From the NCBI RefSeq assembly GCF_002332425.1, contig NZ_NRGS01000022.1, positions 148,187 to 212,186 of the forward strand: a stretch of DNA of 64,000 nucleotides, written 5' to 3'. The notes beneath the pieces were generated by a model. It searched no databases and was not told the origin of the DNA. It saw only the letters and a list, made by a program, of their open reading frames with translations. A program made the position numbers and the translations under genes. This DNA comes from Brachybacterium alimentarium. Its GTDB lineage: Bacteria > Actinomycetota > Actinomycetes > Actinomycetales > Dermabacteraceae. Shown one piece after another: positions 2,695 to 39,800 of this stretch (positions are counted from its first letter, which is position 1; each line of letters opens with the position of its first letter).

Positions 2695-2774
2695 GGCGCT
2701 CGAGCACGACCGGTGCCGCCGTCGGAGCCTCCCGGCGGAGGGGGCCGACGGCTCGGGCCCGCGCCCCGCTCTGC

Positions 2775-2795
2775 TCAGCGCTGATCAGCGCAGGA
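2775..2795. promoter_or_regulatory. Candidate operator upstream of the clpP pair
   Basis: The palindrome TCAGCGCTGA (2775-2784) is followed one base later by CAGCGCAGGA (2786-2795). An overlapping perfect 14-bp palindrome, GCGCTGATCAGCGC, spans 2778-2791. Nearly the same two elements recur upstream of the convergent HTH gene at 4595-4619, suggesting that one protein, probably that HTH regulator, binds both sites. No clear -10 was assigned. Confidence 0.55.
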
Positions 2796-2839
2796 CGGAT
2801 CCTCTCCCGTCCCTCCCTCGGGGCGCGGATGCTGGAGCC

Positions 2840-3541
2840 ATGACACGCACAGCGACACTTCCGCACCTCGAGGATTCCGCGGCCGCACCCGCAGCGGCCG
2901 GCCTCGGAGCCCTCACCGCCACCCGACTGCTCCACCACCGGGTGCTGATCCTGGACCGAGAGCTGGACCAGGACAACGGCGCCCAGCTCAGCGCGCAGCT
3001 CCTCCTGCTGGCCGCCGAGGACCCGCGCCAGGACATCACCCTGCTCATCAACTCTCCGGGCGGCCTGGTCCCCGCCATGCTCGCGATCGGCGATCTCATG
3101 GACCTGGTCCCGTGCGATGTGCGCACCGTCGCCCTCGGCATGGCGTACAGCGCCGGACAGTTCCTGCTCACGCACGGCACCCCGGGCAAACGCATGATCC
3201 TTCCCCACGGGCGGGTCCTCATGCACCAGGGGTCCGCCGGCTTCGGAGGCAGCGCCGCGGACATCGAACTGCAGGCCGAGGATCTGCGCCGCAGCCGAGA
3301 TCTCCTCATCGCTCTGACCGCGGAGCGCACCGGGCAGAGCGCGGAGACCATCGCTCAGGACTCGGACAGGGATCGGCTCTGGGATGCCGAGGGTGCTGTC
3401 GAGTACGGCTTCTGCGACCGCATCGTCACCTCCCTCGACGAGGTCCTCCCTCTCGGCATCGGGGCACGGACAGGCACCTCTCTGGGAGTGACCGGCGTGG
3501 TCGCCTCCCCCCACTCCGCACCGTCAGGAGATGCACGATGA
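2840..3541 (+). CDS. clpP: ATP-dependent Clp protease proteolytic subunit (accessory ClpP paralogue, intact triad)
   Basis: A 233-residue ClpP, the serine-peptidase barrel that degrades proteins fed by Clp ATPases. The catalytic triad is visible: Ser104 in GMAYSAGQFLL, His129 in RVLMHQG, and Asp174 in IAQDSDRDRL. NSPGG (71-75) is the usual oxyanion-region motif. The C-terminal tail from about residue 203 is longer than usual and of low complexity. ATG at 2840 fits the conserved start of the fold. The next gene overlaps it by ATGA, so the two are co-translated. The pair with an adjacent ClgR/PopR-like regulator resembles the accessory clpP3-clpP4 operons of Streptomyces, not the housekeeping clpP1P2-clpX locus. 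Confidence 0.92.
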   Translation: MTRTATLPHLEDSAAAPAAAGLGALTATRLLHHRVLILDRELDQDNGAQLSAQLLLLAAEDPRQDITLLINSPGGLVPAMLAIGDLMDLVPCDVRTVALGMAYSAGQFLLTHGTPGKRMILPHGRVLMHQGSAGFGGSAADIELQAEDLRRSRDLLIALTAERTGQSAETIAQDSDRDRLWDAEGAVEYGFCDRIVTSLDEVLPLGIGARTGTSLGVTGVVASPHSAPSGDAR

Positions 3542-4140
3542 GCACCTACACCATCCCCAGCGTCATCGAGCGCACCCGGACCGGGGTGGAACGCAGCGCA
3601 GACGTGTATTCGCGGCTGCTGTCGGATCGCATCATCTACCTCGGCACGCCGATCGACGACGGAGTCGCCAACTCGGTGATCGCGCAGATCCTGCACCTGG
3701 AGAACGAGTTCTCCGACGCCCCGATCCATCTCTACCTGAACTCCAGCGGGGGCGATGCCCAGGCCGTGCTGGCCATCTACGACACCCTGGCGTACGTGCG
3801 CAGCCGAGTCGCCGTGACCTGTGTGGGCCAGGTGGTCGCGGCGCCCGTTGTGCTGCTCGCAGCAGGCACGCCCGGGCTGCGCTCAGTGCTTCCCCACACT
3901 CGCGTGGTGCTCCATCCGCTGGAGGCGCAGGGTCGCGGCGCCGTGCCCGATCTGATCCTGGCCACGGAAGAGGTGGAACGGATCCGGCGTGCCCTCGAGC
4001 TGCTGATCGCCGAGCACTCCGGGACCTCTCTGGAACAGGTGCGCCGGGACCTCGAGCGGGAGCAGGTGCTGGACGCCGAGGCAGCCGTCGCCTACGGGCT
4101 CGCCGACGAGGTGCTGCTCAGGCGGCCGCCAGCAGCGTGA
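3538..4140 (+). CDS. ClpP-like subunit with the catalytic serine replaced by alanine
   Basis: A 200-residue ClpP-family protein encoded immediately after an intact clpP (ATGA overlap). The fold motifs NSSGGD (69-73), VLPHTRVVLH and AVAYGLADEVL are present. At the active-site strand, where ClpP reads GQAAS, this protein reads GQVVAAP, so the nucleophile position (residue 101) is Ala. His126 and Asp171 of the triad appear to be kept. It is therefore predicted to be proteolytically inactive and may act as a structural ring partner of the upstream ClpP. Its 3' end overlaps the convergent HTH gene by 23 bp. It could alternatively be a decaying paralogue, but the rest of the fold is well preserved. 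Confidence 0.85.
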   Translation: MSTYTIPSVIERTRTGVERSADVYSRLLSDRIIYLGTPIDDGVANSVIAQILHLENEFSDAPIHLYLNSSGGDAQAVLAIYDTLAYVRSRVAVTCVGQVVAAPVVLLAAGTPGLRSVLPHTRVVLHPLEAQGRGAVPDLILATEEVERIRRALELLIAEHSGTSLEQVRRDLEREQVLDAEAAVAYGLADEVLLRRPPAA

Positions 4141-4534
4141 GACCGGGCCGGGCGGCGAGGGCGACCTCGCCGCCTCCCTGCCCGGCGGCACGCGGCCTCG
4201 CCACGGGGGAGGACACGGAACGGTACGGGCGGGACGGCCGCGGCGAGGAGGCCAGCTCCAGGGAGAGCGGATAGTCGCCGAGGGTGTCCGGGAGCAGCGC
4301 GGGTTCGGCGGCTCGGAGCAGCAGCTGGGAGACGCTCACACCGAGGGCCCCGGTGATCGCGGCCAGCAGCTCGGAGGACGGATCCTTGCGGCCCCGTTCG
4401 ACATCGGAGAGGTGCTGCATGCTGATGCCCGCCGCTTCCGCGACCTGGGCGAGCGTGCGGGCCTGGCGCCGCCGCTCGTCACGGAGCACGGCGCCGACGA
4501 GCTCGCGCAGCAACGGATCCAGATGCCCACTCAT
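4118..4534 (-). CDS. ClgR/PopR-like HTH transcriptional regulator with C-terminal Ala-rich tail
   Basis: A 138-residue XRE-type DNA-binding protein. The helix-turn-helix covers about residues 13-72 (RTLAQVAEAAGISMQHLSDV followed by ERGRKDPSSELLAAI), the pattern of the ClgR/PopR family that controls clp genes in actinobacteria. The rest is probably disordered and the protein ends LLAAA. In Streptomyces PopR, two C-terminal alanines are needed for degradation by ClpP, so this tail may be a degron that ties repressor level to protease capacity. It converges on and overlaps the clpP-like gene. Near-identical DNA elements lie upstream of this gene and of the clpP pair. The family call is firm; the specific target is inferred. 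Confidence 0.85.
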   Translation of the reverse strand: MSGHLDPLLRELVGAVLRDERRRQARTLAQVAEAAGISMQHLSDVERGRKDPSSELLAAITGALGVSVSQLLLRAAEPALLPDTLGDYPLSLELASSPRPSRPYRSVSSPVARPRAAGQGGGEVALAARPGLTLLAAA

Positions 4535-4592
4535 GACCCGAGGCTACGCCGGCTCCTCCCGCTCGTCGGGTGCCTCCGCTGTGAGCAGAACA

Positions 4593-4619
4593 CGTCAGAG
4601 CTGACGTCGCAGCGCAGGA
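4593..4619. promoter_or_regulatory. Candidate operator upstream of the ClgR/PopR-like gene
   Basis: CGTCAG-AG-CTGACG (4593-4606) is an inverted repeat whose core TCAGAGCTGA differs by one base from the TCAGCGCTGA element upstream of clpP. It is followed at 4610-4619 by CAGCGCAGGA, identical to the second clpP element; the gap is 5 nt here and 1 nt there. The site lies about 60-85 bp upstream of the minus-strand HTH gene and would suit autoregulation. Confidence 0.5.
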
Positions 4620-36897: not shown

Positions 36898-39800
36898 CGA
36901 CGGAGCCGCCCGCCACCACCGGCGCCCTTGCCCGACTGGGGTTCAGCCGCACCGATCGGGTGCACCGCTTCCTCGCGGAGCCGGTGCTCGCAGCGCTCGG
37001 CAAGGGAGCGGCGGCACGCCTGGGGGCGACGGCCGACGGCGATGACGCGGTGCTCGGCCTGCTGCGTCTGGCGGAGGCTGCCGAGGAGGCCGGGGACTCC
37101 GCGCTGAGGGACGACTTCCTCGCCTCGGTGGGGACCGCGGGCAGCCACGGCGACCGCCTGATCCGCCTGCTGGGCACGTCAGTGGCGCTCGGGGACTTCC
37201 TGGCCCGCCATCCCGATCGGCTCGAGGCCCTGCGCGAGGGCGATGACCAGCTGGAGCTTCCGGCGACGGAGGTGCGCAGCAACCTTCTGCAGGCCGTCGG
37301 CGCCGATCCGTCGGCCGACACCCCGGTCGCCTCCGACGGCGCTCGGGAGATGCGCGACGCCCTGCGCGTGGCCTATCACGAGCGGCTCGTGCAGATCGCA
37401 GCGGCCGATGTGGTCGCCCCGGATCCCACCGCGCTGCAGCCGCGGGTCTCCGCGGCGATCAGCGACCTCGCCGACGCCGCGCTCGACGCCGCCTCCGCGA
37501 TCGCCCGTGCGGCCGTGGAGGGGCACGAGAAGGTCAGCTGGTGCGTGCTGGCGATGGGCAAGACCGGTGCTCGGGAGCTGAACTTCATCTCCGACGTGGA
37601 CGTCATGCACGTCGTCGCGCCGAGCAGCGCGGTCGCAGGGGAGGAGGTCGACGAGGAGGAGCTCGTGGTGATCGGCTCCGCCCTCGCCCGTGAGCTGGCG
37701 CGCGCCTGCTCGGACCGCACCTCCGAGGGGTCGCTGTGGCAGGTCGACGCCAACCTGCGGCCCGAGGGCAAGGACGGCCCGCTGGTGCGCACGATGGACT
37801 CCTACGAGCGGTATTACACCGAATGGGCGCACTCCTGGGAGTTCCAGGCGCTGCTGAAGACCCGCGCCGCAGCCGGTGACCTCGAGCTCGGCGCCCGGTT
37901 CGAGGAGATGGTGGGCCCCTGGGTGTGGCAGGCCTCCACCCGCGACAGCTTCGTCGAGGACACCCGGGCGATGCGCCGACGGGTGGTCGCCCACATCCCG
38001 CGAGGCGAGGCCGACCGCAACCTCAAACTCGGGCCCGGCGGGCTGCGTGACGTCGAGTTCACGGTGCAGCTGCTGCAGATGGTGCACGGTCGCGCCAACC
38101 ACCGCCTCCAGAGCAGGTCCACTCTCGAAGCGCTCGCCCGACTCGGCGAGGACGGCTACATCTCCCGTGACCATGTCATCGAGATGGACGCCGCCTACCG
38201 CTTCCTGCGCTGTGTGGAGCATCGGCTGCAGCTGCACCGGCTGCGCCGTACTCAGGTGCTGCCCACGGCCGCCACGGACCTGCGCCGGCTCGCACGCACC
38301 ATGGGGATGGGCACCGACGAGTTCCACCGCACCTACCAGCGCACCCGACGGCGCGTGCGCCAGCTCCATGAGGAGATCTTCTACCGCCCGCTGCTGGTGA
38401 CCGCCTCTCAGCTCAGCGACGGCCAGATCGCGCTGAGCCCCGAGGCCGCGACCGCCCGCCTCACCGCGATCGGCTATCGCGACGGCGCCCGCGCCCTGAC
38501 CCACATCTCCGCGCTCACCGAGGGCATCTCCCGGCGCGCGAAGATCCAGCGTCAGCTGCTCCCGGCGATGCTCGAGTGGTTCGCCGACGGGATCGACCCG
38601 GACCTCGGGCTGCTCTCGTTCCGTCGGCTCTCCGACGCCATCGGCTCGGCCCACTGGTACCTGGGCCTGCTGCGCGACTCCGGTCTCGCCGCGAAGCGCC
38701 TCACCCGCGTGCTCTCGGCCAGCCGCTTCGTGGGCGAGCAGCTCGAGCAGATCCCCGAGGCCGTGCGTTGGCTGGCTCGCGACGAGCACCTGCGGCCGCT
38801 CCCGCGCGACGTGCTGGGCCGGGAGTTCCTCGCCGTGATTTCGCGGGTGGATTCCGTGGACGTGGCCCGGGATGTCCTGCGCCGCACCCGCAGCCGGGAG
38901 CTGCTGCGGATCGCCCTCGCGCACCTCACCGGCGTGGCCTCGCCGCGTGAGGTCGCCGGGGCGCTCACCGACCTCGCTGAAGCCGTGCTCGAGGCGGGCC
39001 TGCTCGTCGCCTTCCACGTCGTGGCGCTCGAGCGGGATGCGGTCGACGACGACGCCGAGACCCTCGACGAGGTCGACGAGGTGGACGTCGACACCGCCAG
39101 ACGACTGCGCGAGCGACGCTCCGATCCGGCCCGCGCGCTGGGACTGGAGATGGCGATCCTCGCGATGGGCAGCTTCGGCGCCCGCGAGATGGGGTACTCC
39201 TCCGATGCGGACGTGCAGTTCCTCGCGATCGACCGCGGCGCCGGCGCCGCCACCGGGGAGATCGCGATCGCCGTCGCCACGCAGACCCAGCGGATCCTCA
39301 ACGCGCCCGCAGCGGGCGCCGACATGAAGGTCAGCGCTGATCTGCGGCCCGAGGGCAGGATGGGTCCGCTGGCCCGGAGCCTGGAGGCCTGGATCGACTA
39401 CTACCGACGAGATGCCCAGACCTGGGAGAAGCAGGCGCTCCTGCGCGCCCGCCCGGTCGTGGCCAGCGAGGCCGTCGCGGATATTCTGCACGAGGAGATG
39501 GGCCGCCATCGATACCCCCGCGGCGGGATCGACGAGAACGCGCGCCGCGAGATCACCCGCATGAAGGCCCGGGTCGAGTCCGAACGGCTGCCGCGCAACG
39601 CCGATCCCTCGCGGCAGGTGAAGCTGGGCCGCGGCGGCATGACCGACGTGGAGTGGAGCGCGCAGGTCATCGCCCTCGAGCATGCCTTCGAGGTCGAGGG
39701 GCTGCGCACGACCCGCACGCTGGCCCAGCTTGAGGCCGCCGCCGAGGCCGAGATCATCACCGCCCGCGAGGCGAGGGAGCTCACCGACGCCTGGACGCTG

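Follow-up and report, generated by a model that had tools for sequence, protein, structure and literature searches.

Catalytic residues, docking positions and operators of an accessory ClpP pair in Brachybacterium alimentarium whose second subunit lacks the catalytic serine

The window analysed here, a whole stretch of 64,000 nucleotides from Brachybacterium alimentarium, carries an accessory pair of ClpP genes together with a regulator gene (Table 1). According to residue comparison, the second subunit, ClpP-B, has lost its cutting site and probably retains the part that docks the ATPase. Comparison alone yields a near-complete split between the two subunits: A keeps the catalytic triad and drops the docking aromatics, and B mostly does the reverse, dropping the triad differently in different lineages.

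The explanation that we regard as likely is that A cuts, B docks the ATPase, and an unstable activator drives expression. ClpP-A and ClpP-B would then form a mixed barrel, most likely with one heptamer of each, in which ClpP-A would cut peptides and the ring of ClpP-B, a subunit without the nucleophile, would serve as the docking site for a Clp ATPase (ClpX or ClpC) that feeds in the substrate. The residues, docking aromatics, and purifying selection described below fit such a barrel. As for expression, the HTH activator would bind its own 15-bp box and the tandem box before clpP-A, presumably activating both. Because the protein carries a C-terminal Ala-Ala, proposed to act as a degron, it would be destroyed as long as the housekeeping ClpP1P2 works, and the spare pair would stay silent. 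Once ClpP1P2 fails, the activator would accumulate and the spare pair would be made.

Table 1. Features of the accessory ClpP locus (positions in the window)
Feature	Position	Strand	Description
Upstream half of degenerate tandem PopR-type box	2770..2784	+	TCTGCTCAGCGCTGA, 2 mismatches to TCYGCYNNNRGCRGA; contains TCAGCGCTGA of the sequence-only reading
Downstream half of tandem box	2785..2799	+	TCAGCGCAGGACGGA, 3 mismatches; contains CAGCGCAGGA of the sequence-only reading
Putative -10 GATGCT	2828..2833	+	6 nt before clpP-A ATG (leaderless-type), read by eye; weak, not TANNNT
ClpP-A (ClpP3-type)	2840..3541	+	233 aa, intact Ser104-His129-Asp178; docking positions T67, L69, L89
ClpP-B (ClpP4-type)	3538..4140	+	200 aa, Ala101-His126-Glu175; docking positions H64, Y66, Y86
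ClgR/PopR-like HTH regulator	4118..4534	-	138 aa, tail LTLLAAA; convergent, overlaps clpP-B end
Putative -10 TAGCCT	4541..4546	-	6 nt before HTH ATG (leaderless-type)
Exact PopR-type box	4575..4589	-	TCTGCTCACAGCGGA, 40 nt before HTH ATG

The ClpP pair in the window and in its family

Pfam, NCBIfam, and PDB searches agree on the ClpP family and on the HTH class of the regulator, with Pfam CLP_protease matching both subunits (181.3 and 182.7 bits, E about 1e-53). The sequence-only reading had described the two ClpP proteins as co-translated, and their genes indeed form one + strand operon with a 4-bp overlap, ATGA being common to both. In the alignment with housekeeping ClpPs, Ala101 of ClpP-B (GQVVAAP) falls in the nucleophile column, as had been claimed. 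His126 is retained, and the Asp column, picked according to the ClpP residue numbers of E. coli and S. aureus, contains Glu175. ClpP-B is a ClpP homologue without a complete triad. Regarding ClpP-A, the earlier triad of Ser104, His129, and Asp174 is borne out for its Ser and His; the catalytic Asp, however, is Asp178, and Asp174 lies off the catalytic column. With an intact triad in ClpP-A and Ala101 in ClpP-B, the earlier idea of an active/inactive pair is supported.

Most of the solved ClpPs among the PDB matches listed align from residue 3-6 of ClpP-B, its N-terminal region included, and most of those listed for ClpP-A align only from residue 27-28. The AlphaFold model of ClpP-B has a mean pLDDT of 73. 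Purifying selection on ClpP-B is of similar strength to that on ClpP-A: compared with seven relatives, the window ClpP-B has dN/dS values of 0.05-0.16 (0.16-0.26 for ClpP-A), and the medians over 210 pairs are 0.26 for B and 0.33 for A, all obtained by a simple counting method of our own design in which the A rows include variable ends. A decaying pseudogene is ruled out by these values.

The accessory pair was found in 22 of the 47 family genomes searched (21/38 of the genus and 1/9 others), and Ala101 is invariant in all 22 loci, the window included. At position 126 these loci have His (17), Arg (4), or Ser (1), and at position 175 Glu (21) or Asp (1). This invariance rules out a sequencing error or one-off substitution, and the Ser-to-Ala change predates the genus sample. 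Ser is restored in none of these close relatives, which leaves the claim of the sequence-only reading standing.

The genome (3.98 Mb) contains four ClpP genes, namely the window pair and a second pair on another contig, which was taken as housekeeping and is directly followed by a ClpB_D2-small protein (presumably ClpX). No dedicated ATPase for the accessory pair stood out among the genome's three ClpB_D2-small proteins, all of which lie away from it. Within the window, the interval between glyS and the clpP pair (2001-2694) holds an apparently broken DUF4037 gene: one frame has a domain match (E 4e-21), the remainder seems to run on in another frame, in which Pfam finds no match, and by eye no ordinary start codon is evident.

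Triads and docking positions across the class

The profile search of the order covered 396 genomes, of which 123 had an accessory B as counted by eye; the 33 left unread all come from outside the family. Among the matches listed, accessory B proteins scored at least 221 bits and housekeeping ones at most 199. The family and the order together provided 94 loci, with the SHD triad in 37 B subunits (other in 57) and in 93 A subunits, the remaining one being cut off. The wider class and named genomes added 78 loci, bringing the total to 172, with SHD in 65 B subunits. In the class profile search 34 rows of at least 308 bits were left unread, 11 of the 80 named loci entered as accessory and 8 as housekeeping, and the genomes sampled were those drawn by the tool. 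Three loci (L247, L262, and L263) were dropped although their scores lie above the accessory/housekeeping gap, since they look like housekeeping ClpP2 and have neither the box (8 mismatches in each) nor an HTH gene that the search found; this leaves 169.

Subunit A has the SHD triad in 168 of the 169 loci, the Asp being cut off in the remaining one. Subunit B has it in 62 and lacks it in 107. Unlike in the family, Ser still occupies the B nucleophile position in 82/169; it is replaced in the other 87 by Ala (59), Gly (18), Trp (4), Glu (3), Phe (2), or Thr (1). The His position of B reads H 143, G 13, R 9, S 2, T 1, and Q 1, and the Asp position D 127, E 29, N 6, H 3, T 2, and S 2. As an Asp change need not abolish activity (Listeria ClpP1 has Asn), the safer count is that of B subunits with the nucleophile or His lost, 101/169. 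The five named Streptomyces ClpP4-type proteins (L148-L151, L153) keep Ser and have Gly for His, and B of Nocardioides agariphilus (L147) has Trp in place of Ser. Since 62/169 keep the triad, the system as a whole does not depend on B being inactive.

Bulky or charged residues (Phe, Trp, or Glu) stand at the B nucleophile in L104, L109, L147, L225, L232, L238, L244, L251, and L257, where they perhaps fill the active site.

In the housekeeping control, SHD was read in 70/73 proteins (37 loci taken as housekeeping, 21 of them from genomes that also have the accessory pair); of the other three, two are unreadable in the alignment and one (L191, SQD) is accessory-like. The latter, from a Streptomyces MAG, retains Ser and has Gln at the His position, unlike housekeeping ClpP2, and no partner ClpP was picked up within the same locus.

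According to a tree of the 169 pairs with the triad columns excluded, the minimum number of changes in B is 8 between Ser and non-Ser and 10 between intact and broken, of which well supported branches force 5 and 7, respectively; the trees are quick ones, and the counts carry no direction. In the tree of 94 loci all branches nearest the outgroup carry Ser, so the simple reading is that Ser was lost in B, and that across the class its cutting site went repeatedly and in different ways. Single regains are possible; L096, for example, has Ser among Ala and Gly relatives.

As for docking, in S. hawaiiensis cutting is reported to belong to ClpP1, with ClpP1 plus ClpP2 S131A being fully active, the ATPases to bind solely via the ClpP2 pocket (S94, Y96, and Y116 were mutated), and ADEP to act via the ClpP1 pocket (PMC9765437). 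The docking positions of ClpP-A and ClpP-B were taken at the same offsets from the nucleophile as these ClpP2 residues. Both docking aromatics are present in 146/169 B subunits and in only 2/169 A subunits. Intact B has both in 62/62 loci, and broken B in 84/107. The 23 B subunits without both are all broken: the second position is His in 22 of them, and the first is Ile in the remaining one. Docking may therefore be poor in some of the broken B subunits. Taken across the class, an experimental result on Streptomyces ClpP1P2 becomes an evolutionary pattern. By this pattern Streptomyces ClpP4 should lack peptidase competence, a prediction that bears on the understanding of the ClpP3P4 back-up and its ADEP insensitivity.

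Regulator, operators, and promoters

The best NCBIfam match of the HTH protein is ClgR, at 82.7 bits and so below the cut-off of 170, which makes it a candidate member of the ClgR/PopR family. A second ClgR-like gene lies elsewhere in the genome (111.6 bits). The convergent HTH protein ending in AAA, as described by the sequence-only reading, is encoded from 4534 to 4118, and its C-terminal Ala-Ala is conserved in 109 of the 118 HTH genes found. These genes were located by motifs devised for this analysis, and the 51/169 loci without one do not prove absence. A motif search of the five named Streptomyces loci found no HTH gene near the pair. PopR is reported to be an activator degraded via ClpP1P2, and the two C-terminal alanines are reported to play a part in its recognition, mutants having been examined in the case of ClgR and Lon (PMC9775585, PMC9765437).

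The PopR site reported for S. lividans reads TCTGCC-3N-GGCGAATCTGCC-3N-GGCAGA (PMC9775585). The 15-bp PopR-type box TCYGCYNNNRGCRGA is exact before the HTH gene in 68/114 loci, compared with 0/2280 shuffles, which preserve base composition only; within the family it is exact in 22/22 loci at the position of the window box. An in-frame ATG follows 39-43 nt downstream of 60 of the 68 exact boxes, and TANNNT stands directly before that ATG in 60/60, with about none at shifted positions. Given the place of TANNNT just before the ATG, the HTH transcripts look leaderless, and the box position suits an activator.

Before the A gene, the tandem box has at most 3 mismatches in 109/168 loci, a sample that still includes L247, L262, and L263 (at most 4 mismatches in 0.1% of shuffles, which again preserve base composition only). 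The window's tandem box ends 40 nt before the clpP-A ATG and is a weak copy with 5 mismatches (at most 5 in 0.4% of shuffles). The putative -10 of clpP-A begins 28 nt after it, and the spacing from box to putative -10 is 28 nt in both window promoters. Among the named Streptomyces loci, the published tandem PopR site form is matched exactly before the A gene in L149 and L150 and is one and two positions off in L148 and L151, respectively; the 40-nt spacing is absent at the named Streptomyces clpP3-type starts as predicted here.

The sequence-only reading had taken the HTH protein for a repressor acting through two shared elements, TCAG(C/A)GCTGA and CAGCGCAGGA. Both 10-mers do occur before both genes, and in the window they have 5 and 3 matches where 0.50 and 0.36 would be expected, with the patterns picked post hoc and palindromic places counted on both strands. 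On the HTH side, however, they are exact in the window only: in the 21 other family loci the best copies have 1 mismatch (first) and 2 mismatches (second), none being exact, whereas all 22 loci have an exact copy of the neighbouring box (4575-4589). The elements at 4595-4619 are thereby ruled out as operators, and the clpP-side 10-mers turn out to be pieces of the degenerate 30-bp tandem box at 2770-2799. The conserved box matches the PopR activator site in form (PMC9775585), its position suits activation, and ClgR and PopR of Streptomyces are reported as activators (PMC9765437). A repressor is thus very improbable, and activation remains the preferred reading. Further single copies of the two 10-mers lie far from the pair (window 39331-39340 and 38203-38212).

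A wider PopR regulon is unsupported, with 7 exact places of TCYGCYNNNRGCRGA in the genome against 25 for the reversed control pattern, the box being the rarer of the two. Among the four of these seven places that were read (L285-L288), only the HTH gene's own has, by eye, both the 40-nt spacing and TANNNT. Around position 1501 of L287 an exact box lies 47 nt before a gene that resembles a cyclophilin-type peptidyl-prolyl isomerase, as named by reading the protein; it has no clear -10 at the usual distance.

Competing explanations and known systems

How ClpP-B came to lose its nucleophile can be read in more than one way. Neutral decay, with the barrel working as described and the loss serving no purpose, falls a little short of an even call. 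The B site would drift in a rarely used spare because cutting by the docking ring is dispensable, and the ClpP2 nucleophile of Streptomyces is reported to be so (PMC9765437); the varied replacements and the persistence of intact B in 62/169 loci also point this way. However, the housekeeping proteins keep SHD in 70/73 cases even though Streptomyces can do without the site of one ring, and Ala in 22/22 family loci indicates that a new state can be fixed. Selection for inactivation is a more tentative reading: a one-sided barrel might give different products, suffer less self-damage or drug capture, or fix the ring for the ATPase. It is favoured by the repeated loss in B (at least 5 Ser/non-Ser and 7 intact/broken changes forced) with none seen in A, and by the complementary loss of docking aromatics in A; relaxed constraint, however, also predicts repeated loss, and the change counts are without direction.

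It is improbable that ClpP-B instead acts as a dominant negative, entering housekeeping ClpP barrels and reducing or redirecting their activity. The genome does have four ClpP genes, and engineered Ser-to-Ala ClpPs can assemble without cutting. The A gene, however, lies upstream of B in 172/172 loci, with an overlap of mostly 1 or 4 bp. A broader proposal, which we consider unlikely, is that the actinobacterial spare ClpP evolved as a 'drug-proof' protease, switched on when the housekeeping enzyme is poisoned: A would be without the aromatic pocket that ADEP antibiotics use on ClpP1 and B repeatedly without the nucleophile needed by covalent inhibitors, beta-lactones among them, with one cutting and one docking ring remaining. 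Streptomyces ClpP3P4 is reported to be ADEP-insensitive (PMC12607617), and S. coelicolor without clpP3 and clpP4 is reportedly killed by beta-lactones (PMC9775585), both of which are consistent with the proposal and no proof of it.

The system for which we favour a cutting A, a docking B, and an unstable activator is, as a whole, already known: judged by sequence, the window locus corresponds to clpP3-clpP4/popR of Streptomyces. In the parts of the open-licence PMC literature at hand, no statement was found of recurrent ClpP4-type inactivation opposite to the partner's loss of docking aromatics. According to the tree, ClpP-B shares one clade with the Streptomyces ClpP4-type proteins (21 rows, support 80) and ClpP-A one with the ClpP3-type proteins (20/21 rows, support 96, the 21st, L116_A, being badly trimmed), with the Streptomyces labels given from context and not from annotation. 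Both systems have a second ClpP pair beside ClpP1P2 and a regulator that ends in Ala-Ala; the window regulator is a probable member of the ClgR family, and the degenerate tandem before clpP-A is a putative operator of the TCTGCC-3N-GGCAGA type. In the window, however, the regulator gene lies next to the pair in convergent orientation and has a single box of its own, and ClpP-B has Ala for Ser; the ClpP4-type proteins of the five named Streptomyces retain Ser and have Gly for His.

In comparison with the housekeeping ClpP1P2 of Streptomyces and mycobacteria, the accessory pair likewise appears to consist of two different rings; the SHD triad, kept by 70/73 proteins of the housekeeping pairs read here, is, however, often missing from accessory B. 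The Listeria ClpP1/ClpP2 complex is reported as a mixed barrel with Asn for Asp in the triad of one subunit (PMC9765437); its change is at the Asp and that triad is active in the complex, whereas the window ClpP-B is without the nucleophile. ClpR of cyanobacteria, plastids, and apicoplasts is reported as a ClpP homologue that is without the catalytic triad and works with active subunits (PMC7966870). ClpP-B resembles it in having no complete triad and differs in lineage and regulation; its co-encoded partner is a ClpP1-type subunit, and in our tree, which was built without ClpR sequences, ClpP-B stands beside actinobacterial ClpP2.
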